Source of the DNA: Telopea speciosissima
Lineage: Eukaryota > Streptophyta > Magnoliopsida > Proteales > Proteaceae
Assembly: GCF_018873765.1 (NCBI RefSeq)
Contig: NC_057923.1
Span: forward strand, 7,700,413-7,764,412
Direction of reading: 5' to 3'
DNA: 64,000 nucleotides
A program made the position numbers and the translations under genes. Shown here piece by piece: positions 16,658 to 64,000 of this stretch. Each line of letters begins with the position of its first letter. Positions within the stretch are counted from its first letter, which is position 1. The notes beneath the pieces were generated by a model. The model did not search any database, was not told the DNA's origin, and saw only the letters and a list, made by a program, of their open reading frames with translations.

Positions 16658-18057
16658 TTAGCAAGGCTTGCCGATCTCGCAGTTGAGTGCACCAGCGAAA
16701 CGAGTAAGTCTACTAACAAAGGTACCAGGCTTATATGAGATCATATCCTTCTTTGAGAATGGCCTATTCTTAAATGGACTACCTGATTGCCTGAAAAAAG
16801 CACCGTTCTCCAACAAATCTCCTTCAGATCTCCATACCCATTCCTTCCATACTTCCTCAGGTGAGTAATCCCTCTTTGTAACTTCTTTCGCCGCCAATGT
16901 TGGTGGTGCAACGAAACGGTTACCTTGACTAACAATTGTTGGGTGCATACTACCACCAATAGCATACATTAACCAATGTGTATAATCATTGTTCACAACA
17001 TGAAAGAATCCCCATCTGCATCTTGGCATCCTCTGTACCAATCCTCTTCCAAAATGGTTGAATGCTACAGTAATTTGCATCTTCTCATCAGCAGAGTAAC
17101 CATCGCTTGCTCCGAAAAGCATAACCTCGTTGTGATGAGTGAAGTGATTGTTAGAAAGGGTAATTGCAGTAGAACCCATAATTGCATCAATTAATCCATC
17201 TTTGCAACGAGACATCGACATGTGATCTACCCAGATATTGGTAGAACCGAAAATTGAAACACCATCGCCATCACTGGCGGTGCGAAGCCCGTAATGGTCG
17301 ACGGAATCACGAATCATACCACCATTGCCGGAAACAATATCGTGGACATGGAGATTTGTAATGATGACATTATCGACATACTGGATTGTAATGCCGGCAC
17401 CATAAGCGATATGGACATTAGCACCACGACCATCGATGGTTTTGTTGCAAGAAACCATGAGTTCTTGGTTGAGACGGATGATCATGTCCTTAGCGAAGTA
17501 GATCCAAAGGGGTTCTTTTTGGATGACACCGTAACGAAGGGTTCCAGGTTTGGGATTCACCATATCGTTGTCGGATGCATCGGTGACAACGTAGTATTTA
17601 CCTTTCTTTCCACCTCTGGTCTTCCTGCCGAACCCTAACACACACTTGGCATAGCTCTTACGCTTCTTGTGCCAGTCAGGTTTGCACCTCCAACACCTAT
17701 CGATTGGGTTGGTTGCCAAGCATGGTCCTACGTATTTCCGCAGTGACCTTCTAGTGGTGTTGAGATGGACTTGATCGTCCGCCTTTAATACCCTGCATTT
17801 ATATTATTTGTTAATGAAAAAATAGCTACGAAACATGAAATTTATGATGTTCACCAAAAGAAAAATACTCACTTGTCTACTTTGGCCATGAAATTTTTGG
17901 TGACTGTCTCGGGATGAGGTTCATAGTTGGCAATGGTGCGCATCTCGGCTACTTTGGCACGATGTTGCCACACGGCATCCATTTCAGCAATGTGGGCTTT
18001 CACAACATATGTGAAGAAAAAGAAGGCAAATAAGATGATGGCCTTCACTGATTCCAT
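16658..18057 (-). CDS. Pectate lyase (polysaccharide lyase family 1), secreted
   Basis: Two exons, 18057-17873 and 17792-16658, are joined across an 80-bp GT-AG intron and give 439 aa. Residues 1-21 form a hydrophobic signal peptide, so the enzyme should act in the cell wall. It cleaves de-esterified homogalacturonan by calcium-dependent beta-elimination. Residues ~27-60 fit the pectate-lyase N-terminal region found in the pollen LAT56/LAT59 and Amb a 1-like group. The catalytic beta-helix follows, with an acidic cluster around ASDGDGV (~235-239), WVDH (~249-252), CKDGLIDA (~258-265) and RMPRCR plus [10 protein letters not shown] (~316-335). The length suits plant family members and all motifs look intact. 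The start was chosen because the signal peptide follows directly and exon phases agree. Assignment to the pollen-type subgroup is an inference from the N-terminal domain. Confidence 0.95.
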
Positions 18058-34800: not shown

Positions 34801-37800
34801 TTTGGAAGGGTTTACAGCCTGCGGCTCTAGAGTTCTTAAATTTTAGGAACCTTACAGCATACACAAATCGTGGATCAGCTTCTGGATTTTATTTCTTTAT
34901 TTTATAATTGCATAGTTGTTTGGACAGGTAGGGAAACCTGATAAGATTTAGTTTTCTATTTTATGTTAATTTACTTTTCCGTGTAGGAAACTCCATCTCA
35001 GCGCACGTAACAGGGAGATTTCCTTCTTTATTTGGTTCCCTTTTTAAAGTCGATTTCCTTACGCTGTCTTTGGTATCATTTATGTTTTTATTTTTCTGAC
35101 ACATTTTCATTTTGCGGGTGTTTGGTATCATTTATGGACCGTGTTTTGATTTAAAATAAATTAGAATAACACAAAAACCATAAAAGGCTCAGGAGCCATT
35201 TATGCATTTTGGCCAAAAATCATTTTTCTCCATTTATGTGCTCAACATTAATGAGCATGTGTTATACCCACTCCAACATAAGGTCAAATTGGTAAAATTA
35301 CAACATTTTTATAAAATTCTTATCTCCTTCATTAGACCCTTCCTCACTTATGTCCCTCGTTATACTGTCTCTCACTTCTCTTCCCTATTCGTTCTAACCC
35401 TAATTTCTTCCTGAAGGAAACGGAAGTCATCTGTTGGTCTCTCTCTGTGTGCGACCTGAAACCTGGTACAATCTCTCTCCCTTTCACTGAATTGTTCTCA
35501 ATCGATTCCATTTCCGTTGGTCTTTCTTTTTCTTTTTTTTTTGTAATGTATGATGAATGTATTCTAACTATATGAAATCTCAGAGATTTGAGATAGCTGA
35601 TCGATGGAGCAAAAGTTTTGTTCCTTTTTTTTTTAAATATTGCAAACTGATATGCTGTGTGTTCAGCGTTGGAGTTTCAACAGTTGCAACCTCTGATATC
35701 AGTGATGGAATACAACCTCTTTCATTGTGTGTTTTTGTGTGCCCAATTGGCCACATTTCTCTTCCGATTATGTTTCCTACAAGGACCTCCACCACGACCA
35801 GTGAGTTGTCTGTTGAGTTAGTGAAGTATTTCAAAAAAATAGGAGGAAATTGGGCTTGGACTTTTATGTTGGAGAAGTTCATTGTTTGTGATTAGTGAAG
35901 GAAAATGTATCCCTCCAAGTCTGGACTGAAATGAAATGTTGTTCACCTCAAGTTGTAGATTGTTGTTTATGCTTCTTACATGACTATGGTCTTAAAGAAA
36001 GTTAGCCTCTACATGGGAAATGTGGATCTATTAATGACGCATGCATGGGGTGGTCCAGTAATGTGGTTTCGCTTAAATCCTGATGTAGTTGGTGCAGCTA
36101 AAATGTCTCTGATTTATTGCTAGGTTGGATGAGGGAGCTATCCACCAAGGTAATTCATCAGTGATTACTATTGATGGTGGTAATGCTTACTCAGTGCTTA
36201 TGTGAGTTTTGAGGCCTAGCATTAGTATATTCTAAAATGAATATTCATTAAACTGACGGTTTTGTTTATGAAGGAATTCTGATCATGCAAGTGGGACTTT
36301 GAATAGTTTGAGGGGAGTCATTACTCGCAGATTCTGGTCTCATTGCACCCATGCTGGACATAAAAAAGTTTGAGCCTTGGGTTCTAGACACAGCATTGCC
36401 ATTTGGGGTTCTATTATCTGCTCCGCAAATACTTTTGGGCGTTTGAGTGAGGATGTTTCCAACTCCTAGTGGTACTTTATGTGGATAAATTTCGAAAGAA
36501 GGTGTTTGTGATTAGGATTGATGGAATCAACATCCGTTCATGTGCCTCCCTTTGTTTCTTGTTTCAAGCGCAGTTAGATCTCCTTAATATCCCCACCCTA
36601 TTACAGTCCAATAGTTGGGACAAATTTGAAGGACAAGATGTGTGTTTCGAAAGAACAGAGCTATTGTGGTTCTTCCATCTTTTTCTGGATTTTGAGTGAA
36701 ATTGTTTGTTAATTTCTGTATATTGAACTTGGGTGACTGCTGATTTGGTGATACTGTTACTTAATGGTGATTGCACAGGTGAATGTGGTTGAACACACAT
36801 TGCATTGGAGCAGTAGATGGAACACACATGAGTACATCAATTCCAGTTGCAAAACAAGTACCATATAGATCTGGTAGAAAAAATGAAGTTTGTCAAGTTA
36901 CCCAAAATGTATGTGCTTCACCTTCCTTTGGACTGGTTGGGAGGGAACAGCACATGACAATCAAATATTATGGGAAGCCATCAACGCTCCTTGTCTGAAT
37001 TTTCCCCATCCGCCACCAGGTAATGTTTCATATTTTAATTTTTGTAGTCGTTATTAATTTTTTTTTTAGATTTTGATTACCCTGTTGAAATTCTACTTGT
37101 TAATCTTAATTTTGTAGGAAAGTACTATCTTGTTGATTCTGGATATACACATACGCCTGGTTATATGGCTCCTTTCAAGAAATGTTCAATATCATCAACA
37201 AGATTTTAGGCGTAGACGACCACAAGGAGCAGAGGAACTATTTAACTTTACACATTCGTCATTAAGAACTGCTATTGAGAGATCATTTGGTGTCTTGAAG
37301 ATGCATTTCCCTATTTTAAAGATGATGCCCCCATATAGTTTCAAGACACTAGTTTTGATTGCGATTGCTTGTGTAACTATACACCACTTTATTAGAAATC
37401 AAGTGGCATCAGATTGGCTTTTAAAAAAGCAGAGGGGAGAGTTTGATAATGAACGGCAAGACAGTGACGATGATGAGGTAGTGAACATTGCAAATGCAGT
37501 AGGTGGTACACAGCAACAACAATGGGAAGAATATCGAACACAAATTGCAGATCAGATTAAGGAAGCCGATCAGGATTGATGATGAACATATGAGTCTATT
37601 GTGTTTTTTATTTTTCATGTAACTATTTGGTATGGTTTTATTAAATGTTGTTGAGGGACTTGTGTTTTTAATTTTCCATGCACTGTTTGGTATAACTTTA
37701 TTAAAGACTATTATGGGGTGTGGGTGTGGAAGTCAGAGATCTCCGTTTTTTTTATTAGTAGGGTGTGAGTGTGGAAGTGGCCGAATTCTGCTTTTTTTCC

Positions 37801-40800
37801 TTTCTTCGAGTAAAGATCTATTGTTGTCGCAGATCCAAAAGATATAATATATAATGGGAAAAAAACTCATTAAAGAATAAAACAATGACTAATTGCCTGA
37901 CTGATTGAGTTAGAAATATGAAATTCATCCACCTGATGGAAGGAAAATGAAACTTAAGAAAGCCATATAGCTAGAATCTTACATCATGAAGGATGCCTTT
38001 TGTAGTGACGTCAAATGCCCCAGCTGTCCCATTGGTAGCATTAATCCAATCAATAATCCTCTGCCGGTGTGCATCTTGATTGTGAGCCAATTCACCATAC
38101 TTATAACTGAGAGAATCCCAGTATTCACCGACTGCAAAGTAGGGTCCACTCGCTTCCAAGTAATCCTTTACGTAACCACCCCAGAATCCTCGAACAAAAT
38201 CAAGCCTCCACCCGTCATACCCAATCTCTTTCCTGCATTCAAATGTTAGTAGCAAGCATACTGCAATCATTTTTAGTACAAGCACCTAGGAAAGGAAACA
38301 TAAAGAAAACCATGGAACATAAAGTACAAGCAGATTAATAGGATGAAGAGGAGTTTCCCTCTTGAATCTAAGAATTGCATATAAGATTACAACAGGATAA
38401 AAATGGTGTTAGCTATATGGCCAGAATACCGTGGGGGTATTCTGGTCCTCTTTCTTTTGTTATTTTATTTATTTCGTACATGTGGTTTAGTCCCACATTG
38501 CTAATGTACAATTGTTTCATTGTTCATTATGATTATAAATAAATATGTGCTTGGGATGACTAAATCATCTAAGCATTCATTCTCTAATCCTATTCTGTTA
38601 ACATGGTATCAGAGCATATTCGAATTAGGGACCCCCCCTTCTCTTCCTTTCTCGATTTCAGCCTCCTCCCCTCTCATTCGCAAGTTTTTTTTCTTCTCCT
38701 TTCCCCTTGTTCTTCATTCACCCCTATTAGGGCAGCACTGATGAGGTGATCAATAGATCCAGTGGCTGCCCTCCATTACCTTATTCTATGATCAAGTTAT
38801 TGATCGATAGGGACAATTTCAGCTCCAGTTGCTGCCTGCGATATTTGAAGATTCTGTTTTTATGGACTGCTCTCACTCCCTTCCAAGGAAGCAATCTACA
38901 TCATTGAAGACTCAAGAACTGCAGCAGTATTTACTATTCTGGATTAGTTCCTATCTCCACCTAGTTTGAAGACATCCTAGATCGATTATTCTTCCACCAA
39001 ATCAGGGTTTTTTCAAAACCCTGAGCATTATCGATCTAGGGTTTGCAGGTTCTTGTTGCGGCTGATATTTGGCAGAGAGATTCAGCATTACCAGAGCACC
39101 ACTCGATCCTAGTTTCAGCTCCATCTGCTCAGATTTTGCTCTTCTTCTTCCCTACATCGACCTCATCAATTTCAAGGTTTTTTCCAAAACCCTGTAAACA
39201 TCGATCTAAGGGATTTACTTGGCTACTGTTGCTGATTTTTGGAGACCATTGTTCTACCACTACCAGCAGGCTCTCCTCCAATTTTCAGCCCTTAACTTGG
39301 AGGATTTCTTGGATTTTTCTTCACCACAGCCCCCTTCTGCGATTTGGGCTTCTCTACTGTCTTCATGGGTGACTCTGTGGATTCCACTGCTATTTCTGTT
39401 GGTGATGGAACCAGCAAGCCAGATTATCACACTTTTTCTCCAAATCCAATCAAGTTGGATGGCAGTAATTAATTGCTTTGGTCTAGGTTTGCATCCTTTG
39501 CCATTGCTGGCCGTGGCCTTACTGGTCATATTAGGGGCACTACTGTTATGCCCACTGAGGTTGGAGCTGCTCAAGACAAGTGGCTTGCCAACAATGGACT
39601 TCTTATGTCCTACCTAATTGGTTCTATGATTACAGATCTGCAGCACAATTTTCTTCTCCTTGACACAGCCTCGGAAATTTGGGCTGCTTGCAAGGAAACT
39701 TACGGACAGCTTGGCAATGATGCCCAGGTTTATGAACTCAAGAAGAAGGTCCTTCACACTACTCAGGGGAGTTGACAGTCTCCAAGTACTATGCTACTTT
39801 ACGCAGCCTTTGGCAGCAACTGGACCACTTTTCTGACTTTCACCCAAGTACAGCTACTGATATTACTTCTTACAAACAACATATGGACAAGATCAGTGTC
39901 TATGATTTTTTGGCAGGTTTGAATGTCGAGTATGATTAGATTCGGGTTCAGGTGTTGGGTCATAAGCCATTTCCCACACTTGAACAGTCCTATGCCCTGG
40001 TCTCCTCTGAAGAAAACCGTAGGGCCGCCATGTTACACCCTCTTATTACTGACAGATCGGCACTCCAGGCTGCTGCCCCTGCCACTCCTGCACCTAGTAG
40101 CACTGCTTCTCTTGGTGATTCTACTACTAGGTCTGTTGTTTGTGAGTACTGTCACAAACCTTACCACACCAAGGAGAAGTGCTGGAAACTTCATGGGAAA
40201 CCGGCTGACTTTGAAGCTAAAAGGGCTGCCAAGACTAAGACAAAGACTAAGACCAAGGCCCATTAGAATGAGACTGTTATTGCGGCCCCTACTACTGACT
40301 CTGGTCTATCCCAGGATGATCTACAGGCACTCCTTCGTATGCTGAGGTCTTCCACTGCTGCTGCCTCTACTACATCAGCTACTGCCAATTCTTCTGCTAC
40401 TTCAGGTTCCCACTTTGCCCGGTTAGGTATTCCATTTGGGGGTCATTGTGCTTCTGTAACTTCACATCCTTGGATCATAGATTCTGGGGCGCTACAGATC
40501 ATATGACCGGTTCCTCTGGCTTGTTTCATAGATATTCTCCCACTTCTGGGAAAGACAAGGTCAAGGTAGCTGATGGTTCCCTTTCTTCTATATCTGGAAA
40601 AGGAATCATCAACTACACTTCCTCTTTTCCATTAACTTCTGTTTTGCATATTCCTAATTTTACTACTAACCTTCTTTCCATTAGTAGTATTACTCGTGAT
40701 CTTAACTGCAAAGTCACTTTCTTTCCTTCTCATTGTGTGTTTCAGGATCTGGACTCTGGGAGGACGATTGGATTGGGTAAAGTGCACGGTGGGCTGTACC

Positions 40801-43800
40801 TGCTTGATGATGGTCGCTTCTCTCCACCACCATTGCCTTCTCCACTACACCAGAACTCCATGGTCTCTTCTGAACTCTACCAATGGCACTCTAGGTTAGG
40901 TCACCCCCCTTTAGGAATTTTAGCACATTTATTTCCTAGTTTGGTCATCCTTCGTACTAAGGATGACTTTTTTTGTGAGGCATGTGTTCTGGCCAAACAG
41001 ACACGTTCAAATTATCCTATTTTAAATAAAAGGAGTTCTTCTTGCTTTCAATTAGTGCACTCTGATGTTTGGGGCCCTAATCGTAAACCCTCTATTTCTG
41101 GTCATCGGTGGTTTGTCTCTTTCATTGATTGTCATTCTAGGCACACATGGGTGTATCTTTTGCACACAAAAAATCAGGTTTTTTCATGTTTTCAGCACTT
41201 TCATAAAATGGTCCAAACTCAATTTCAGGCTACTCTCAAAATATTGAGAAGTGATAATGGGACAGAGTATAAAGAATCACAATTTAAAAAATATTTGGCT
41301 GACCATGGAATCATTCATCAAACTAGTTGTGTTGATACCCCTGCCCAGAATGGTGTGGCAAAAAGGAAAAACCGCCACTTGCTAGAAATGGCCAGAGCTT
41401 TGATGTTTGCGAAAAATGTCCCATCTCAATATTGGGGGGATGCGGTTCTTACGACGGCCTATCTCATCAATAGGCTGCCCTCTAGGGTACTTAACTCCCG
41501 TAGCCCCTCTGATATTTTGATTGGTAATTCCTCCTTTATTGTGTCTCCCAAGGTGTTTGGTTGTATGTGTTATGCTAGAGATACCAAATCTCCAGGCAAA
41601 CTTGAACCTCGAGGGCTCCGTTGTATTTTCTTGGGTTATTCTCCAACCCAGAAAGGCTATAAATGCTACCATCCCCCTTCCCACCGTACCGTGATTAGTA
41701 TGGATGTTATTATCCATGAGTCCCTTTCTTATTATTCTTTGCCACCTCTTCAGGGGGAGAGTGTTGGTGAAGATGTGGCTTTCGAAATTCCTTTACCTGA
41801 GGTGCCTTTGGCTGCTGCCCAGCCATCTTTACCACCCTCGGCTGCTGTCCAGCCCCTTTTACCACCCACGGCTACTACCCATCCCTTTTTGGATGCTGCC
41901 TATCCTACTTTGGAGACTGCCCAACAACCTCTGGCTGTTCCTCCCTCACCTGGGAATCCTTTACAAGGGGAGACCATAGAAAATAGTGTTGTTAATATTC
42001 CTATTCAGGGGGAGCTGACTCCAGTCCAGAGAACTATTGGTGAATTTCAGAAGAGAATTGACAACTCCAACATGATCACCTATACAAGGGGCAGATCCAC
42101 CAGAGGGCAGTTGCATCCCACTGTAGCACCAGTACCCATCCAATTGCCGGCTCCAGACACAGATCCTACATCTCCTGGTAATCCATCTCCTTCCGACCTA
42201 CCTATTGCACTTCGCAAAGCTACTAGGACTTGCACTTTACATCCCATATCTCATTTTGTTTCTTATAACTCTCTTTCTCCCTCTTTTCGTGCATTTGTAT
42301 CTTCTCTTTCCTCTATCTCGATTCCTAGAAATTGCCAAATGGAAAGTGGAAGGCAGCAATGTTGGAAGAAATGAGGGTACTACACAAAAATAATATGTGG
42401 GATCTTGTGGCTCTTCCTCCAGGGAAAAAACCAGTGGGATGTAGATGGGTCTTCATGGTTAAACAAAAAGCTGATGGCTCGGTGGATAGGTATAAGGCAC
42501 GTTTGGTTGCAAAGGGGTTCACTCAAACTTATGGAGTTGACTATCAGGAGACCTTTGCACCAGTGGCAAAGCTCAACACCGTCAGGGTGTTATTATCTTG
42601 TGCTGCGAATCGTGGGTGGGATCTTCAGCAGTTAGATGTCAAAAATGCCTTCCTCCATGGAGAGCTTGAGGAGGAGGTATATATGGACATTTTACCAAGT
42701 TTTTCTGATGACAGGACTAAGGGCAGGGTTTGTAAATTGAAGCTTGCCCTTTATGGTTTGAAGCAGTCACTTAGGGCCTGGTTTGGCAGATTACATAAGG
42801 CTATGATTTTAGCAGGTTACAAGCAAAGCAATGCTGATCACACTTTGTTTATCAGACGGCTTGGTAACAAGGTTACTCTTCTCATAGTCTATGTGGATGA
42901 TATTGTGGTCACGGGTAATGATGATGCTGTAATCAGGGATTTGAAAATTCTTCTTGGCCGTGAGTTTGAGGTCAAAGATCTTGGTCCCCTAAAATATTTT
43001 CTAGGGATAGAAGTTGCTCGATCTTCAAAGGGCATCTTTCTTTCTCAAAGAAAATATGTCCTTGATCTATTGACTGAGACCGGGCTACTTGGCTGTCATC
43101 CTTCAGATACTCCTATGGAAGCTACTACAAAACTTAGGGAGAAAGAGGGTAAGCCTGTTGACAAGGGTGCTTATCAGCGGTTAGTAGGCAAACTAATCTA
43201 CCTTTCTCACACACGCCCTGACATTGCAGTTGCTGTAAGTTTGGTGAGTCAGTTCATGCATGATCCCTATTCCTCTCATTTGGATGCAGTCCATCGTATT
43301 TTGAGGTATTTGAAGTCTGCTCCAGGAAAAGGAATCCTTCTATCTCCCAATGGTCACTTGAAGATTGAAGCCTATATTGATGTCGATTGGGCTGGTTCTC
43401 CTGACAGGAAATCTATCTCTGGCTATTGTTCCTTTGTGGGTGGGAACCTTGTCACATGGCGTAGCAAAAAGCAGAATGTTGTGGCAAGGTCTAGTGCTGA
43501 AGCCGAGTTCCGCGCAATGGCAAAAGGAATTTGTGAACTTCTGTGGCTCAAAGGATTATTGCAGGATATTGGTGTTGTTGTCCATCTTCCTATGATGCTT
43601 TATTGTTACAATAAAGCCGCCATTAGCATTGCTCATAACCCTGTCCAACATGATCGTACTAAACACGTGGAGGTTGACCGTCATTTCATCAAGGAGAAGG
43701 TTGAAGCCGGCCTCATTTGTGTTCCCTTTGTGAAGTCTACTGATCAACTGGCTTATGTGTTCACTAAGGGGCTAAGTAGCAAGCTGTTTCATCCTATCTT

Positions 43801-46800
43801 AGTCAAGTTGGGCATGCATGATATATATGCACCAACTTGAGGGGGAGTGTTAGCTATATGGCCAGAATACCGTGGGGGTATTCTGGTCCTCTTTTTTTTG
43901 TTATTTTATTTATTTCGTACGTGTGGTTTAGTCCCACATTGCTAATGTACAGTTGTTTCATTCTTCATTATGATTATAAATAAAGATGTGCTTGGGATGA
44001 CTAAATCATCTAAGCATTCATTCTCTAATCCTATTCTGTTAACAAATGGTGAAGTTGCATTTTTCTCTATTGAGCTTGTTACGAAATCAGATAATACAAC
44101 CAGAATCCATGAAGAAGAAGACAACGAAAAGGAGGAAGAAAAGCGGAGAGAGAAGGGAAAAGAGCTCACGGGTTAAGCGTATCTGACCAACTGTGGGCAT
44201 TAACATGCATTAATAATAACCCTAATCTATTACAACAACATTAATACCCATACTCAATCACTTAAATATATATATATTTTTTTGGATGAATACAATCACT
44301 TAACTTAAACACCACCACACTTTCTAAACAACACCATGACTCATAAGCATACAACTAAACACTACCACAAATTATAAATGTCACCACTAACAATATTTTG
44401 GACAGTAGAATTTTATTTCTTCTATATGGTTTATTAAGGTGTAGCAGTATTGTGTAGTTTCCTGGAGATCACAAATAGATCAAAACAACAAAAGAGTTGT
44501 TCTATACAATTCCAAAAAGTTCACATACACAGCCACCAAAGGGGGGTTATTAAATGAAGGGGGAAAGATTTGATTGTAGATTCCAGCCATGGTTTGAGAA
44601 ACAAGGTAGAGTCAAGTCGAAGATCACCATGTTTCAGGTGGCTAGGTGATGGATAGATGTGTCCCAACTCCTAAACAGTCCTGGTCCAACCTATCTAACT
44701 TCAGTTTTTACAAATCCAAACAATAATATTGATATAAAAAAGTTAGAGTTTCCTTAGGAGCGCCATAGCGGTGGAGAGAGCCTTCTCTCCTCGGCCCACC
44801 CTTTTCTGCCATGTGGCATGATCGGATGGGGCCCAAATTTTGTTGACAGATGACCCTAAGGTCCCCTGAAGACACGTCAAGTTTTGAACTAAAAAGAGTT
44901 TCCAAGTGGCGAAATGAAGCACTGAAAAATTAGGACTACCAAACAGGTGGGTGGGACTACAAGTGGGATGTAGTAATATCATGTTGTGTTAGATGTGTTG
45001 GATTATAAAGTGAGAAGTACTGGATCAGTCCCCTACTTAAATAGGTTCCCAATTTGAAAACTTTATCCCATTTCTTATTTATTATATATCTTATTGGATT
45101 TATGGAAAACCCTACAATTATCCCCACAACACTATTTTCCGTCAAACAAACAGGGCCTAAGTGACCAGATTGGTAGGGTAACTTTTTCCCTGCTAATCGA
45201 TCGCTTCTCTTTCTTTCTTTTCTCTGTTCTGACATTCAGATTACAGATCCAAATCCTTATCATATTCTAAGATATTGCATGATAAGATTGCGTTCTAATC
45301 AGATATCCAAATCCTTATCATTTTCAAATTCAGACCATATGTAAACAATCAATCGGATGGGATTGGATTGGCTCATTTGCTAATTGGATTTGGAATGTAT
45401 CAGGTGTGATCCGCCTCAAATTTGATTCATTGACAGCCGTACAGGCTGACATGAGTTGTGGGATATAAGCAAGAAATCTACGAAGGAGCAGTAGCTTAAT
45501 GGGCAAAGGAGGGATTTGAATCATTTGATCAGATGCCAAATTTGACATAAACCTCTCCTTCTATAAAGTTTTAAAAACTTAAATCATTTCCTTTACAAAT
45601 TTTGTACTATTCGTCTCACTATAATAATATTAGATTCTACCTTTTGTTGTGAAAAAAGTTTTTTTTTTTTTTTTGGGTGAAAAGGCGGGTCCAGAATTGA
45701 ATTAATGAGGAGAAATCCAAAGAATGGTAATCAAACATAGAGAAGGGAACCGTGATCACTTTGACCCCATTCTGGCACATCAAGATCCACAGCACATAAA
45801 GGGAGCATCATCATTTCTTCATTACAAATGCATGAAAGTAGGTTCCTGTTAATTTTTACACATAATATTATATATATGAAGTTTCTGATAAGGAAACTTT
45901 GGAGATGCTTTGAGATGTTATGATGCTTGATAGGTTGTCTAGTATTTCCTGCTCTGTTGGCTTATCTGTCATGCAGCAATATCTGTTTATGCTCAAAGCC
46001 TCAAACTAAGATGATGTTATCCACATCATCTTCTAGTCATGGATTAATTTTCTGCTCTATCTAGCTTTCCTATGTATCAATTTAATGCTTTGAGAATTGT
46101 TTCAGTCAAGCCTGTTTGAAGAACAGGGATATCAGAAAAGACAACGAAAAGTGAGCACGACAGCTCTAAGGTTGAGTCAACCATATTTGACATGTGTCAT
46201 TATGTGTCATATTTAGGTAATTCCCCAGCAATCAGATGTTCAGAATAACCGTTATAGGTCAACATGGCAAAAATTGATGACAAAGCCAGGAAAGCTTCTG
46301 GCTGTGCTGGAGCCCATGTCCCTTTTATCTCTTCTTTTTTTTTTTTTTCAATATTTTACCTTTTCTGCATTTTAATTAATTTTTCCATGATGTCGTGCTA
46401 CTGCAAAAGGTTGATGGCTTGACCAGACGGCCAACTGCTGACCCATGAACTGGCCCTCAACCAGTCAACACACAATCCAGGACTGGAAACAGTCCCTGTT
46501 GTTTTAACACCGTAGATTGAGAAAGAAAAGTAGAAAATAAATATATGGAATATCACAGTGAATTCCACAGAAATGACATAAGAGACTTGGACAAACCTTA
46601 GCCAACAGAGCCACCCTTTCAGATCTTCCCTCACAAAATCTTGTGAATGATCAATATTTGGAGCAGCATGGAAGTTATCCCCACTACTTTTATTGCCCCT
46701 GCCCTGTCAGACAAAAATAAAGGTAATTTATTGATCCCAGAATGCATATGTAAATTAGAGAATATAGAGATATAGTAATATCCTAAATGGGGGGGGGGGA

Positions 46801-55800: not shown

Positions 55801-58216
55801 ATACCTGTAACAAAGTCTGCAAAGCCATTTTCTTATAGATTTTGGTTCCTGGTGGATGAGGGCCCGCTGGAATTTCCCACCTTCTATCATTATCTGTGCA
55901 CACTCCCCAGTGAACAACTACATCTCCAGGTAGATCAGTTTCTAAACGAACAACATTCTTATCCTTCTCTGGGCTTTTTGCAACAGAAACAGTCATATAA
56001 TTTTCAACACGAACTTCTTTTAAAATAGAATGTTCTTCACAGAATCCTTCAAGATTCCTATTTTTCTGCTTCGTATCCATTGGTTCACTGTTGTCATCTT
56101 GATCTTTAGGTTGAGATTTTTCTGGTTTGAGAAGCATTGCCGACAATTGGCCAAGAGCTCCTGGGATTCATGAAAAACTTGTGTGATTGGTCTGTTCACT
56201 TGTTCATAGAACATAAACGAGGGAAATCGGTTTATTTAAGACAAAACATACGAAAAACTGAAGTGTCCATGACCAGCACAAACTCTATCCATCTCAGTCC
56301 TAAACATGGCCCAGTAGTTGCCAAATCCCCTAATATCACTTTCTCTGCCATCTCCATGTGGCCCCCCATACATGGGCAGGGAAAGGCATCTGATGGGTAT
56401 TTGCTAAAGATGAAGGGAACTTTAAACCTACCCAAAGTACCCTGGGTATGCTTTTTCATGATCAGTTCAAGAGACAGCAAAGAGGCGGGAGGGAGTGTGG
56501 CAGCATGGGATCTTCTCCCGGTCCTTTGGCCTAGAAATACATAAAATTGAATTGCCAGCCCCTGTCTTTGATAAGCCATAACTGAATGTAGTGCTATTTG
56601 ATGATGCTAATAAAACTATGACTATAATTTTTTTCCTTTTTGGACTCTGTTTATTCACTTTTGCAACCAAGTACTACTGATTTTGGGTATGGATGCTCCA
56701 ATAGGCATGACTTGGCACCAAGGCTCACATCATGGTTTCCCCACTCAAGCAAAACACATCACCACTTACCACACTATTCCTTTCGGCAGATGACACATAG
56801 TGATGAAAGTTTTATTGTAAGATTTTTCTCAAATGTAAATACTGGATAGGTTAAGATTGGGATTTAAAGATCCTTCCTCAAGTTTGGAAAACCAAGCAAG
56901 GACAAAATGATTGATTAACAAATTGATTGAGAATGGCATGGGCAAATTAGAATCGACAAAATCACTGCATATCATAATACGCACAACCTGACCATATGCT
57001 AAAGCCTTTTTTGTTCCCTATAAGATTGCTATCTTTATGAAGGTAGTCCATGAGGGGCACTTTGAAATCTCTCCCTTTGTGCTGACACCAAGCTCCAGTT
57101 TCCTTGTCCTACACCACCAAAATCCAAATGCGAAACATGAAAATAAAATATAGCCATAAAGGGTTACAAAATGTGTTTTAAACTGCATATAGCGAAAAGT
57201 TGGAACCTTTAGGACAAAATTTATAGTCGCAATTGAACTGCGGGTGTTAAAATTGATCTGCAATTCGTGGAATGTCTTTCCCTCAGAAGTTGATAACAAG
57301 TTCTTCAAAGGTGTCTCTATTGCGTAATCCTAAAAACACCAAATGAATGTTCATTTTCAGATGCAACATAAGGAGACTCAACCAACCTACATCTCAATCC
57401 AACAGTACCATAGATGAATACCTTCATGGGAACAGAACCAGGGGGCCTCATTTCAGGTGGCGGTTGATCCCACTCACTGCCAATTAAACAAAATAAATAC
57501 GTCAAGAGGAATATCAATAAGGAACAAATAAAACAAGAACCCAGAAAATAATAATAATAAACATAAAAAAAAAAAAAGGTAGTCCCACAACAAGTTACTT
57601 CAAATGGTCTTATGAATACAAGATGTTCATCGTTAAACATAAATCGAAGGAACTTAAATAAAAGGACCAAAAGTACAGATTCGAAGAACATTGACAATGG
57701 AACAAATCAAACCTGCCGACTTCATCAATATAATTTACACCCCAATGCAAAACCCATTTCCCTGGAAGATTGCATCCTACCGTAAGCCGCCAATTCTCTT
57801 CATCTTTCCCTTGTTCCAACTTCACAGAAACTTTCCCTTCCACCTAACAATGACAATTAACCAAATTGCAGGCCCTTGTCTTCCAGAACAACCAAAAGCA
57901 ATTTTTTTTTTTTTAAAAAGACGATTTTATTTTTCTTTTCTAAAAAGAAGGAAGAAAATACCGTTTGAGTTCGTCTCAACGTGAAACTCTTCTGAAACGT
58001 GACCTCGGACGCTTCAGAAATTTCCAAGGTAGCAGTATCAGTAGTAGAACTAGCCCTGAGCACAGGAACAGTGCGTGGCTTGAAGTTGTAGAAGCTTCCG
58101 CCATTGAATGCTAGCTTTGGAGGAGAGTAATTCAAATAGGATAGCTTGGTTTGCTTTGATCTGGAACGAATCCTGAGACATTGAAGAAGAAGAGGATCTA
58201 ACCTTACGGTAGACAT
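28878..58216 (-). CDS. AMY3: Chloroplast alpha-amylase AMY3 (two CBM45 domains plus GH13), 13 exons
   Basis: Exons: 58216-57962, 57843-57713, 57476-57422, 57329-57207, 57108-56988, 56160-55805, 52333-51642, 47451-47262, 46703-46597, 38232-37983, 31711-31589, 29703-29536, 29036-28878. All introns are GT-AG and phases join, giving 909 aa. An in-frame TGA lies 9 nt before the ATG. Residues 1-~55 look like a plastid transit peptide. Two CBM45 starch-binding regions follow (~86-225 and ~260-400), each with a W-V-L-H-W-G-V-like or V-V-V-H-W-G-V motif. A helical, charged linker leads to GH13 (~515-909), with DVVLNHR (~602), nucleophile D688 in GWRLDF, acid E713 in GEYW and D796 in ENHD. C521 and C609 sit where the redox-sensitive pair of Arabidopsis AMY3 is (recalled as C499/C587; both offset by 22). 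It hydrolyses alpha-1,4 bonds in plastid starch. Introns 6, 7, 9 and 10 are 3.5 to 8.4 kb and full of transposons. Confidence 0.97.
29177..29304 (-). mobile_element. Au-type SINE, 5'-truncated (AMY3 intron 12)
   Basis: The minus strand carries the B box (ggtttgaaac) and the body shared with the SINEs at 50486 and 53767 (gtaaggctgcgtacatttgc, ctgcagtagtag, gtgcactggg). The A-box end is missing. A perfect 12-bp target duplication, TCATGTGCATAT, flanks it at 29165-29176 and 29307-29318. Confidence 0.85.
30010..30850 (-). mobile_element. RTE-like LINE 3' relic (AMY3 intron 11)
   Basis: The segment near 30050-30090 is a diverged form of the plant RTE 3' end seen at 2490 (gccaactaaatgtggttggcttcatggatcc). 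Upstream on the minus strand there are scattered similarities to the RTE C-terminal coding region, such as tgatcctattaatgaaaactatc near 30600. No intact frame remains, and the limits are approximate. Confidence 0.6.
32187..32208. repeat. Poly(A) run
   Basis: About 20 consecutive A residues in AMY3 intron 10, not linked to a recognisable retroelement. Confidence 0.85.
32460..32950 (+). mobile_element. TRIM retrotransposon (family 1) with three LTRs (AMY3 intron 10)
   Basis: Three direct repeats of 127-129 bp (32460-32588, 32643-32769, 32824-32950) begin TGTTGAAATT; the last ends TTCCAACA. They are separated by two 54-bp cores. Each core starts with a Met-tRNA primer site (TGGTATTAGAGC with one change at 32589; TGGTATCAGAGC at 32770) and ends in purine-rich gggagcgggca. 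One perfect 5-bp target duplication, CATTT, flanks the whole array (32455-32459 and 32951-32955). It thus behaves as a single insertion unit. Same family as 7349-7645. Confidence 0.93.
33436..33560. repeat. Short tandem duplication
   Basis: Two units of about 65 bp share ttttgcacag.gatctg.aaattcaggtga.cttttg, starting near 33448 and 33510. A third weak match occurs near 34010. Function unknown. Confidence 0.6.
33590..33894 (+). mobile_element. TRIM retrotransposon (family 2) (AMY3 intron 10)
   Basis: Two 75-bp direct repeats (33590-33664 and 33820-33894) begin TG(t/g)TGTTG-like and end CTGTAACA. The 155-bp core starts with the primer site TGGTATCAGAGC at 33665-33676. Flanks AGAAT and AGAAC (33585-33589 and 33895-33899) match at four of five bases. 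The LTR sequence differs from family 1. No coding capacity. Confidence 0.85.
34512..34664. mobile_element. hAT MITE, same family as 2845-3587 (AMY3 intron 10)
   Basis: The ends are CATAGTTGTCA and TGACAACTATG, with the near-perfect 8-bp target duplication CTCTGCAA / CTCTGCGA at 34504-34511 and 34665-34672. Only 153 bp long, it is a shorter derivative of the family. Its inner part is rich in gcctaggcg-like words. Confidence 0.88.
34673..36780. other. AMY3 intron 10 sequence without a recognised gene
   Basis: Includes a 112-codon plus-strand ORF (35557-35895) with no known domain. The motif ttggtatcatttatg is repeated near 35069 and 35127. Part may be the decayed left half of the PIF/Harbinger element that follows. 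Confidence 0.4.
36781..37579 (+). pseudogene. PIF/Harbinger-type transposase relic (AMY3 intron 10)
   Basis: The first piece (36783-36998) has the DDE_4-type block CIGAVDGTH, then IPV and [13 protein letters not shown]. After a short intron-like or inserted stretch, [19 protein letters not shown] occurs near 37123-37180. The remainder, from 37200, reads [13 protein letters not shown], then [15 protein letters not shown] and a C-terminal helix. The junction near 37175 needs a frame change, so the enzyme is broken. The N-terminal part is not recognisable, and I found no terminal inverted repeats or 3-bp target duplication. Family assignment is from the VDGTH and ERSFGVLK-type motifs. Confidence 0.85.
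38407..38603 (+). repeat. 5' LTR of the copia element
   Basis: 197 bp, begins TGTTAGCTATATGG and ends TCTGTTAACA, directly followed by the primer-binding site. A TATA-like tataaataaata lies near 38533. Confidence 0.95.
39365..40266 (+). pseudogene. copia gag (broken)
   Basis: Starts MGDSVDSTA. Typical copia gag blocks are present ([40 protein letters not shown]). The zinc knuckle is [14 protein letters not shown] near 40142-40183. Lesions: a TAA after the LDGSN block near 39470, a frame change near 39768, TAG at 39937-39939 and TAG at 40264-40266. It cannot give an intact capsid protein. Confidence 0.88.
40446..43840 (+). pseudogene. copia pol: protease, integrase, RT and RNase H (broken)
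   Basis: The protease active site IIDSGA lies at 40471-40488, but the frame shifts immediately after, before TDHM. Integrase follows: HSRLGHPP and CEACVLAK (His-Cys region), then [14 protein letters not shown] and PAQNGVA (catalytic core). The frame changes again near 42340, where RT starts. RT has [24 protein letters not shown] and YVDDIVVTG; RNase H has [12 protein letters not shown] and [13 protein letters not shown]. The second long frame (42332-43840) is intact over RT and RNase H. The stop is at 43838-43840, just before the purine tract. Confidence 0.92.
43848..44044 (+). repeat. 3' LTR of the copia element
   Basis: 197 bp, matches the 5' LTR with five visible substitutions. The purine tract gagggggag precedes it. 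Confidence 0.95.
44045..46596. other. AMY3 intron 9, remainder
   Basis: No gene. It has AT-rich sequence, a poly-T run near 45660 and a segment ending caaacaaacagggcc near 45155 that looks like the end of a decayed DNA element. No partner end was found. Confidence 0.4.
48200..50240 (+). mobile_element. LTR-retrotransposon relic, Ty3-like protease and LTR-like part (AMY3 intron 7)
   Basis: On the plus strand 48706-48850 encodes a retropepsin-like segment of Ty3 type: [14 protein letters not shown], then [13 protein letters not shown], followed by a stop. Upstream, a 104-codon ORF (48206-48520) is of the proline-, serine- and glycine-rich kind seen in retroelements; I cannot place it. Downstream (about 48990-49330) is an LTR-like stretch with repeated ttagtttctattt words and a TATA-like region. 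A damaged Met-tRNA primer motif on the minus strand near 50190 suggests a second element. The boundaries are not resolved. Confidence 0.5.
50280..50900 (-). repeat. Unclassified AT-rich repeat, copy B, interrupted by a SINE (AMY3 intron 7)
   Basis: Read on the minus strand, it shares ordered blocks with 59655-59792 plus 61459-61700: tttgtttggta, caaacatttcgaaaatg, aaatgttt, aaaaaaaatggcataaatt, gatgtactaattataa and gcgtttaaaa. Copy B is uninterrupted at the point where copy A carries the Mutator-like element. The SINE at 50486-50655 splits it instead. Confidence 0.75.
50486..50655 (-). mobile_element. Au-type SINE, full length (AMY3 intron 7)
   Basis: The minus strand begins with gggcgagctttagtgcaatgg, a box-A-type start, and has a degenerate B box near 50600. 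It ends in the conserved tail cgtgcactgggtatgcc. A perfect 18-bp target duplication, AATTAATTTAATATTATA, lies at 50468-50485 and 50656-50673. Confidence 0.93.
52334..53751. other. AMY3 intron 6, 3' part
   Basis: No gene seen. An 89-codon ORF (53139-53408) lies between inverted atgtttg and caaacat words (about 53125 and 53274), possibly a small decayed DNA element. Confidence 0.35.
53767..53934 (+). mobile_element. Au-type SINE (AMY3 intron 6)
   Basis: The plus strand starts gggcgagccttggcgaaacgg (box A), has ggttcgaaac (box B) and ends cctcgtgcactaggatgctcttttt. The 15-bp target duplication is CTAGAGTATGGATTC / CTAGAGTGTGGATTC (53752-53766 and 53935-53949), one mismatch. Confidence 0.92.
53950..55804. 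other. AMY3 intron 6, 5' part
   Basis: No gene, repeat or transposon end that I can support. AT-rich sequence with short ORFs only. Confidence 0.4.
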
Positions 58217-59654: not shown

Positions 59655-60371
59655 CACTGTTTGGTATGGCAGGTTTAAAAAGCATAAAATCCAATGATGT
59701 GGTAAAAAAAAAAAGATCCAACATTTCGAAAATGAAATGGATGGTAGGGTCTTAAATGTTTAGTTTTGAAAATAATATTGAATAAAAAAAATGGTAAAGT
59801 ACACGTACCCCTTAGAATGCACCCAATATTCCTCGTATCCCTTAAGCGATTTAATATTCTGTGTACCATCCCTCAATATTCTATGTACAACTCCTATTTT
59901 ACATCCCAAATGCCAGATAGGTCCAATCCGTTAAATATCATCGTTAGATGTCAAAATTTTGACCATTTTACCCTTTACTCCATTTTCTTAAATCTAAAAA
60001 GACTTAATTACCCTCATTTATTTATTGTCCTAAACTAATTGAAAATGACCATTTTACCCTTTGTTTTATTTTTATAAATGAAAAGACCTAATTGCCCTCA
60101 TTTATATATTATCCAAACCTAATTTGAAAAGATTATTTTACCCCTAAATATTTATTCATAAAAACCCCAAAATGCCCTCATCTTCCCCAAATCATCTTCT
60201 TTTATCGCTGACCTTCCAAACTGAAGATCGACTTCTTGAAGCTCTTGAAATCCAAGTTCTTCCCTATAATCCATCCAGAAAAAAAAAGTTTCAGAAAGAA
60301 AAATAATCAAAATCAGAAAATTAGATGTAAAGAGGAAAGCCCCAACAAAATCCCAAAGAAGAAAAAGTTAC

Positions 60372-60809
60372 CTTCTGGACATCTCTAGCAACTCCATAGC
60401 CACTGTAATACATCTGACCAACCAAGACCTGCATACCAGTATCCCCTGCCTTGGCTTCCTTGAACGCGTCTTGAAACCATCTCTTCACGCAATCAGAGAC
60501 CACTTCCTTCAGCGGCACACGAATCTGTCCCTCACTATTCTCCATTTTCAATTTCAATTGCTTTGATTCGACAGATTTAGCTGTTTCCGGTGAAAAGTTA
60601 ATATTTTTCGATATGGGTTTTGCCTTTTTAGGATTTTTAAGCTTATCTGATGTAAGCTTCGCAAATTCTTGTAACCTCGCTGCAGAAGGGAGTGATTTTC
60701 CCATAAAACAAAGGATGGCTATATATGATCTATTCGCTTTGTTAGGAATAACAGAAGAAGGTTTATCCTTCCAAGTTCCAACAAATGAAGGAAGAGATTT
60801 ACTTGACAT
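60372..60809 (-). pseudogene. Captured first exon of a Sel1-repeat (HCP-like) protein
   Basis: The open exon begins MSSKSLPSFVGTWKDK and runs 146 codons to DVQK. It ends exactly at a donor site (aag followed by gtaac). The last ~40 residues (WFQDAFKEAKAGDTGMQVL, then a G-Q-M-Y-Y-S-G-Y-G-V block) have the Sel1-like/TPR helix-turn-helix pattern with the diagnostic Y-x-x-G-x-G-V turn. The preceding part is basic and low in structure. Translation past the donor runs through intron sequence to a stop near 60321. Only one Sel1 repeat is captured; the rest of the parent gene is missing. Family call is from the motif; the parent gene is not in this window. Confidence 0.8.
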
Positions 60810-61009
60810 CCATTGTCTGTTCCATTAGGAGATTTGAAATCTGCCCAAATCCTAGGAGACTGTGAATCTGCCTTAGTAGGGTTTTAAAAGGAAGATCATT
60901 ATACCGAACGGACAGACTTTAGAAAGAGAGAGTGGGGAAGAGAGACACTGAAAAAAGGATAAACTCAAAAGTAGATTGTGGTGGTGTTTGGTGATGGTGT
61001 TAATGATGG

Positions 61010-61032
61010 GTGGCGGTGGTGGTGGTGGTGGG
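61010..61032. repeat. (GGT)n microsatellite
   Basis: About seven ggt units in the captured upstream part of the Pack-MULE. Confidence 0.8.
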
Positions 61033-61770
61033 TATGCAAAAGAAGAAGATGATGATTTGGAGAAGATGAGGGCATTTTGGGGTTTTTAGGAATAAATATT
61101 TAGGGGTAAAATAATCTTTTCAAATTAGGTTAGGATAATACATTAAATGAGGGCAATTAGGTCTTTTCATTTATAAAAATAAAACAAAAGATAAAATGGT
61201 CATTTTCAATTAGTTTAGGGCAACAAATAAGTGAGGGTAATTAATTCTTTTCAGATTTAAGAAAATGAAGCAAAGGGTAAAATGGTCAAAATTCTGGCAT
61301 CTAACGGTGGTACTTAACGGATTAGACCTATCTGGCATTTGGGATGTAAAACAAAGGTGATACGTGGAATATTGAGGGGTGGTACGCGGAATATTGAACC
61401 ACTTAGGGGGGTACGAGGAATATTGGGTGCATTCTAGGGAGATACGTGTACTTTACCCTAAAAAAAATGGCATAAATTGTGAGACCAACTCCCATCTTAT
61501 TAATTATTATTAATATTTGATGTACTAATTATAAGTTTATATAGTTTTAAATTATTTTCAAAAGGATGTTTTTCACTCCAAAAAAAAAACAACAAAAAAC
61601 GCGTTTAAAATGTTTTTTTTTTTTAGTGTTTATTTGCCGTATGATTGGGACCAATTTGAAAAACAACAAAACAGAAAAACAAAAATAATAAATTCAAAAA
61701 AAATAACCAAAATCAATCTAAAGACCAATGGTTATTAAACTCTTAAGAAAGACTGAAGATGAATGGGAAG

Positions 61771-64000
61771 GAACCCAAAATAATAATGAAGATGAAAGTA
61801 GAACAAACAAAGATTGAAGCTTAGAGAATGTAGTACCAATCCAAGATCGAATCAGAGTGTGAGAATCCTGTAGAAACGGATTTGAGTGGATTCAAGGTGG
61901 TTCCAACAATACCAATATTCTTATCATTGCATGCATTCTACGCATTTATGTTCCATCGCCATTTTTTGCATCCAAAAAACCAGTAAGTAGTAATAAGAAA
62001 CTCAAAAGCAACAGGAGAATGAATGCTCGTCGTTTTGTCTTCTGTTCTATGTGATCTACACAGTGTAATGAGAAAAAGAAATAGAGAAAACTAAAGTGAA
62101 GTTAATCTGAAAGAGAGTATTGGTTTTCAGTTTTCATGTTTTGGAAGAAAAGGAACCCAAAATAATAATGAAGATGAAATGGAACAAATAAAGATTGCAG
62201 ATTAGAGAATGTAGTACCAATCCAAGATCGAATCTGGGTGTGAGAATCCTGCAGAAATAGATTTGAGTGGATTCAAGGTGGTTCCAATACCAATATTCTT
62301 GTCATTCCATGTATTTATGTTCCATCTCCATTTTTTGAAGTTAAGAAACCAGTAATTAGCAATAAGAAACTCAAAGGCAACAGGAGAATGAATGCTCTTT
62401 GTTTTGTTTTCTCTTTTGAGCGATCTAGCCAGTGTAGTGAAAAAGAGAAATAGAGAAAAGTAAAGTGAAGTTAATCTAAGAGAGAGTATTGGTTTTCACT
62501 TTTCAGGTTTTGGAAGAAAGGGAACCATAAATAATAATGAAGATGAAAGGGAGTTAATAAAGATTGAAGATTAGAGAATGTAGTACCAATCCAAGATCGA
62601 ATCCGGGTATGAGAATCCTGCAGAAACAGATTTGAGTGGATTCAAGGTGGTTCCAATACCAATATTCCTGTCATTGCTTGCATTCCATGCATTTATGTTT
62701 CATCTCCATTTTTTGCAACCAAGAAAACAATAAGTAGTAATAAGAACTCAAAAGCAACATGCAGGAGAATGAATGCTCTTTGTTTTGTCCTCTATTCTGT
62801 GTGATTTAGACAGTGTAGTAAGAAAAAAAAATAGGGAAAAGTAAAGTGAAGTTAACCTGAGAGAGAGTATTGGTTTTCACTTTTCAGGTTTTGGAAGAAA
62901 GGGAACCCAAAATAATAATGAAGATGAAAGCAGGAACTAATAAAGATTGAAGATTAGAGAATGTAGTACCAATCCAAGATTGAATCCGGGTGTGAGAATC
63001 TTGCAGAAACGGATTTGAGTGGATTCAAGGTGGTTCCAATACCAATATTCTTATCATTGCATGCATTCCATGCATTTATGTTCCATCGCCATTTTTTGCA
63101 TCCAAGAAACCAGTAAGTAGTAATAAGAAACTCAAAAGCTACAGGAGAATGAATGCTCTTCGTTTTGTCCTCTGTCTATGTGACCTAGACAGTGTAGTGA
63201 AAAAGAGAAATAGAGAAAAGTAAAGTGAAGTTAATCTGAGAGAGAGTATTGGTTTTTCACTTTTCAGGTTTTGGAAGAAAAGGAACCCAAAATAATAATG
63301 AAGATGAAAGGGAACTAATAAAGATTGAAGATTAGAGAATGTAGTACCAATCCAATAGCGAATCCGGATGTGAGAATCCTGCAGAAACGGATTTGAGTGG
63401 ATTCAAGGTGGTTCCAATACCAATATTCTTGTCATTGCTTGTATTCCATGCATTTATGTTCCATCGCCATTTTTTGCATCCAAGAAACCAGTAAGTAGTA
63501 ATAAGAAACTCAAAAGCTACAGGAGAATGAATGCTCTTCGTTTTGTCCTCTGTCTATGTGACCTAGACAGTGTAGTGAAAAAGAGAAATAGAGAAAAGTA
63601 AAGTGAAGTTAATCTGAGAGAGAGTATTGGTTTTTCACTTTTCAGGTTTTGGAAGAAAAGGAACCCAAAATAATAATGAAGATGAAAGGGAACTAATAAA
63701 GATTGAAGATTAGAGAATGTAGTACCAATCCAATAGCGAATCCGGATGTGAGAATCCTGCAGAAACGGATTTGAGTGGATTCAAGGTGGTTCCAATACCA
63801 ATATTCTTGTCATTGCTTGTATTCCATGCATTTATGTTCCATCTCCATTTTTTGCAGCCAAGAAACCAATAAGTAGTAATAAGAACTCAGAAGCAACAGG
63901 AGAATGAATGCCCTTCGTTTTGTCCTCTATTCTATGTGATCTAGACAGTGTAGTGAGAAAGAGAAATAGGGAAAAGCAACGTGAAGTTAATCTGAGAGAG
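61771..64000. repeat. Tandem array of about 380-bp units, running off the window
   Basis: Units start at 61771, 62153, 62522, 62903, 63283 and 63661, each with gaaccc(a)aaaataataatgaaga. Spacings are 382, 369, 381, 380 and 378 bp. Shared landmarks include ggatttgagtggattcaaggtggttcca and gagaatgaatgctc. The last units are nearly identical. No ORF persists across units on either strand. Class unknown: satellite or large minisatellite. Confidence 0.93.

Follow-up and report, generated by a model that had tools for sequence, protein, structure and literature searches.

Organization of the locus

The 64-kb window, by which we mean the whole stretch of Telopea DNA analysed here, carries an alpha-amylase gene that spans ~20 kb (37971-58216, by eye) and, beyond the 5′ end of that gene, a short element with long terminal inverted repeats (TIRs) enclosing an open exon. 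Its parts, together with the nearest exon of the amylase gene, are as follows.

57962-58216, minus strand: alpha-amylase (AMY3-like) exon 1, 85 codons, ending at a phase-0 donor; boundaries by eye, outside the element
59783-59791, no strand: left target-site duplication (TSD), TAAAAAAAA; TAAAAAAAAT, 10 bp, if 59792 is counted
59793-60201, plus strand: left TIR, 409 bases, from sequence alignment
60202-60371, minus strand: presumed partial intron, 170 bases between the exon donor and the left TIR
60372-60809, minus strand: probable captured exon, 146 codons from ATG to phase-0 donor AAG/GTAACT; last ~37 residues Sel1-like
60810-61045, minus strand: 236 bases preceding the ATG, 43% GC; presumably a captured leader and/or promoter
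61046-61457, minus strand: right TIR, 412 bases; with a 9-bp TSD, the element also takes in base 61458, a C
61459-61467, no strand: right TSD, TAAAAAAAA; runs to 61468 if 10 bp

Elsewhere in the window, six of seven open reading frames (ORFs) searched against Pfam gave a match, the matches comprising retroelement domains (RVT_2 and zf-RVT), DDE_Tnp_4/Plant_tran, pectate lyase and HSP20. Together with the plant-type amylase, these matches give the window the look of nuclear plant DNA. The ORF without a match (37974-38285, by eye) is the presumed 3′ exon of the amylase gene, and beside this part lies a fragment of a Harbinger/PIF-type transposase (37130-37579; DDE_Tnp_4, E 5.2e-6). A Copia-type reverse transcriptase (42332-43840) sits on the opposite strand in an apparent amylase intron, and a 353-codon ORF on the minus strand (16658-17719) matches pectate lyase (E 2.8e-20). 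On the far side of the element, ~300 bases from its right end, begins a tandem array of a 378-base unit (61768-64000; 5.9 copies, 91% matches) that reaches the end of the window.

Terminal repeats and flanking duplication

A first-pass annotation of this DNA had described TIRs of ~410 bp, and these were readily recovered. In a BLAST comparison, 90.0% of the 412 aligned columns of the left and right TIRs are identical (E 1.4e-157). When the two arms are aligned globally, with the outermost bases included, 371 of 413 columns are identities, 39 are substitutions (33 of them transitions) and 3 are gaps. Within each TIR, a segment of ~84-86 bases is duplicated in tandem, at 59960-60143 on the left and at 61104-61288 on the right. 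No further TIR copies were detected by BLAST within the window, nor did we see there a parent locus, a second copy or a transposase-bearing relative of the element.

A short duplication indeed flanks both ends, its length being ambiguous. The 10-mer TAAAAAAAAT is present at 59783-59792 and 61459-61468 and nowhere else on the plus strand of the window; TAAAAAAAATGG likewise occurs exactly twice on this strand, as compared to nine occurrences of the 9-mer TAAAAAAAA. At the left terminus, TAAAAAAAAT is followed by GGTAAAGTACACG, and at the right terminus CGTGTACTTTACCC is followed by TAAAAAAAATGG. Pairs of window positions at the element's spacing share a 9-mer in 4 of 62315 cases and a 10-mer in 3 of 62314, the element's own flanks included in both counts. 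If the duplication is 10 bp, the right end carries one extra, unpaired C (61458); if it is 9 bp, the element comprises 59792-61458 and its outermost bases are mismatched (a T at the left end against a G on the right arm when this is read inwards). We prefer the 9-bp duplication with the terminal mismatch, such that the duplication proposed in the first-pass annotation stands while its length of 10 bp, which needs the unpaired C, is the less favored option.

An open exon with Sel1-like similarity

Between the TIRs, the minus strand is open for 146 codons from an ATG to an exon end that reads GATGTCCAGAAG/GTAACT, in agreement with the earlier description of an open exon with a proper splice donor. 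Unspliced, this frame continues to a stop at 60321 and encodes 162 aa, which makes it the longest ATG-initiated ORF of the 844-base interior, a region that contains no transposase. Dinucleotide shuffling never produced an ORF this long, whether applied to the interior (1000 shuffles, maximum 151 aa) or to the whole element (1000 shuffles, maximum 161 aa).

Compared with solved structures at a limit of E 10, the 147-residue exon translation returned nine matches, each of them weak (strongest 0.053) and confined to residues 106-146. Six carry a Sel1 or sel-1 name; the remaining three are proteins that we take to be Sel1-like. Having seen these matches, we picked the last 47 residues as a separate query, for which phmmer reported 15 matches to solved chains up to E 1, and nine of these bear a Sel1 or sel-1 name. 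At the top was an Escherichia coli protein without a Sel1 name (3.7e-7), followed by two that are both named Sel1 (8.6e-7 and 2.8e-5). For 11 of the 15, no individual stretch reaches E 1, so that these low E-values accumulate from several weak matches along repetitive chains; the other four, which do have a passing stretch, are all to sel-1 homolog 1. Residues 1-99 of the same protein provide a contrast, with no match to a solved structure up to E 1.

The family databases were silent on Sel1. Pfam reported no family for the exon up to E 10 and, for the last 47 residues, no Sel1 but a single unrelated sub-threshold match (DUF5075, E 0.072); NCBIfam likewise had no Sel1 match for the exon. This may reflect the presence of little more than one diverged repeat. 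Judged by these sequence similarities, the Sel1 label for the end of the exon is probable, and the first-pass reading of a single-exon cargo with Sel1-repeat character is thereby supported. The resemblance concerns solved proteins from other organisms rather than a parent gene of the host.

We also scanned all six frames of the window with three fixed motifs, a procedure that a strongly diverged Sel1 repeat exon could escape. The Sel1 core motif was found once, inside the exon. Looser motifs outside the exon matched five times in the 378-base satellite and once at 45030, none of these sites being Sel1-like in context. As far as fixed motifs can tell, the gene thus shows no sign of extending beyond the TIRs, which is where the first-pass annotation would have expected further exons if this were a gene with flanking repeats. 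The same observation bears on the idea that we are looking at the 5′ end of a resident gene, surrounded by inverted repeats by chance and without any capture. While the exon could be the sole copy of its kind, the TIR ends are matched and accompanied by a flanking duplication, and the scan, within its limited sensitivity, detected no second Sel1 core motif on either side; we therefore consider a resident gene very unlikely.

Class of the element and origin of its cargo

With no transposase by which the TIRs could be typed, one might also think of a Pack-type element from another TIR superfamily, such as hAT, CACTA or PIF/Harbinger. However, these superfamilies generate duplications of 8, 3 and 3 bp, respectively, and TIRs of ~410 bp with a duplication of 9-10 bp fit Mutator-like elements (MULEs), leaving this option barely credible.

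MULEs are described as having long TIRs (PMC6446971, PMC3310237) and TSDs of 8-11 bp (PMC6446971), and the present element matches both features with its TIRs of 409 and 412 bases and a TSD of 9 or 10 bp. Published accounts of Pack-MULEs (PMC6446971, PMC3310237) describe elements with long TIRs and a duplication of MULE size that lack a transposase and enclose a gene fragment, and it is to this type that we assign the element. Membership is thus a matter of structure, and the TIRs, the flanking duplication and the exon with its donor bear out the Pack-MULE anatomy put forward earlier. We are confident, if short of certain, that the locus is a Pack-MULE, as such a non-autonomous Mutator-like element, and that it holds a fragment of a host Sel1-repeat gene.

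Under this interpretation, capture of a host exon is probable. The interior would have gained, before insertion, the leader, the first coding exon and the start of intron 1 of a Sel1-repeat gene. An autonomous relative would then have provided the transposase that recognized the long TIRs, and the element would have inserted at an A-rich target, of which 9 (or 10) bp were duplicated. The donor followed by intron-like sequence suggests that DNA was captured rather than spliced RNA. Both the parent gene and the mobility of the element are presumed. Searches for relatives of the parent exon in non-plant collections, which are uninformative on the parent, yielded 7 stretches in viral contigs and 27 in genome contigs that fit the pattern, none of which was confirmed.

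What the open frame says about age and constraint

The first-pass annotation had read the open exon as a sign of either recent capture or some constraint. We simulated neutral decay using the substitution pattern and indel rate from the TIR comparison, with any indel counted as a break. The joint probability that a neutral exon keeps its start codon and frame was 0.61, 0.36, 0.22, 0.13 and 0.08 at 1, 2, 3, 4 and 5% change, respectively, the last figure corresponding roughly to TIRs that diverged entirely after insertion. Divergence at this level is common among elements of this type and may predate insertion; with outer-TIR identities of 87-95% among the 14 listed tomato Pack-MULE copies (PMC3310237), we rejected TIR divergence as an insertion clock. 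The open frame therefore hints mildly at a rather recent copy and otherwise says little on age or constraint, so that neither recent capture nor constraint is established.

An exapted gene, expressed and constrained, with the captured leader or the right TIR driving a retained protein of 162-169 residues, would also account for a frame that is still open with start codon and donor. Consistent with this, a candidate acceptor AG at 60264-60265 (minus strand) would join the exon in frame to a tail of 23 codons and a stop, and TIR promoters are described as driving expression of Pack-MULE interiors (PMC3310237). However, the exon holds only about one Sel1 repeat, and the simulated probabilities show that its openness is compatible with neutrality. 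With about one repeat and a stop 23 codons past the nearest good acceptor, the captured fragment is probably no working gene, and we regard exaptation as improbable.

The neighboring amylase gene

The element lies ~1.58 kb from the start codon of the amylase gene (58216, minus strand), and this gene is located downstream of the exon on the same strand. This matches the earlier placement of the element 1.6 kb upstream of AMY3 as far as the distance is concerned; the name AMY3 is one that we partly presume. An amylase exon ORF matches plant-type alpha-amylase (best E 1.7e-14, residues 173-234), with barley enzymes among its best solved relatives, and the locus also shows an Ig-like starch-enzyme domain that stays below the Pfam cut-off (25 versus 27 bits). 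From its long N-terminal extension, we infer an amylase of the plastidial AMY3 type.

The exon donor at 60371 and the start of amylase exon 2 at 57843 (by eye) are both in phase 0 on the minus strand, and a read-through transcript could in principle splice from 60371 to 57843 in frame. Since phases agree by chance in about one in three cases or more, the in-frame fusion is a prediction rather than evidence. Taken further, the Pack-MULE might serve as an alternative first exon of the amylase gene, with transcripts starting in the right TIR or the captured leader; the product would join 146 residues of the Sel1 gene to an amylase lacking exon 1 and hence, presumably, its plastid-targeting peptide. 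We think this a long shot. If true, a transposon would re-address a starch-degrading enzyme by supplying it with an exon. A promoter scan of 60800-61500 found three sites compared with a shuffle mean of 2.4, using a bacterial model that is of no use for plant DNA.

Comparison with known Pack-MULEs

The rice Pack-MULEs of Jiang et al. 2004 reportedly have long TIRs, lack a transposase and carry host gene fragments, with parents and copies known. The Telopea element resembles them in its long TIRs, its missing transposase and the probable gene fragment inside; unlike for them, no parent and no second copy were seen in the window.

A closer look is afforded by the tomato Pack-MULE PM-ZIBP, for which the published account gives a TSD of 9-10 bp, mostly AT-rich, a gene fragment between the TIRs, the above range of outer-TIR identities, and tandem TIRs in 13 of the 14 listed copies (PMC3310237). 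The Telopea element shares the 9-10 bp duplication, a TIR identity of ~90% and, probably, the gene fragment between the TIRs, but has a single TIR pair and is present in one copy in the window. Such elements are numerous: table 4 of PMC3310237 counts 2853 Pack-MULEs for rice and 220 for tomato.

Our literature search for Pack-MULE together with Sel1 returned a single match, which concerns a fungus; this is no claim that the locus is absent from print. A search on alpha-amylase, AMY3 and the Sel1-like repeat gave no mention of Pack-MULE among the matches listed.

Similar to the Pack-TYPE transposons described in PMC8903248, the Telopea element is non-autonomous, holds coding DNA between its TIRs and lies near a gene. 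In three of the four cases examined there, exons of the transposon were merged with host exons in transcripts (PMC8903248); in contrast with such transcript-level demonstration, exon merging at the present locus is a frame-compatible possibility. Overall, the locus looks like an ordinary instance of a documented process and, if so, adds one more case of gene-fragment carriage by a Mutator-like transposon.
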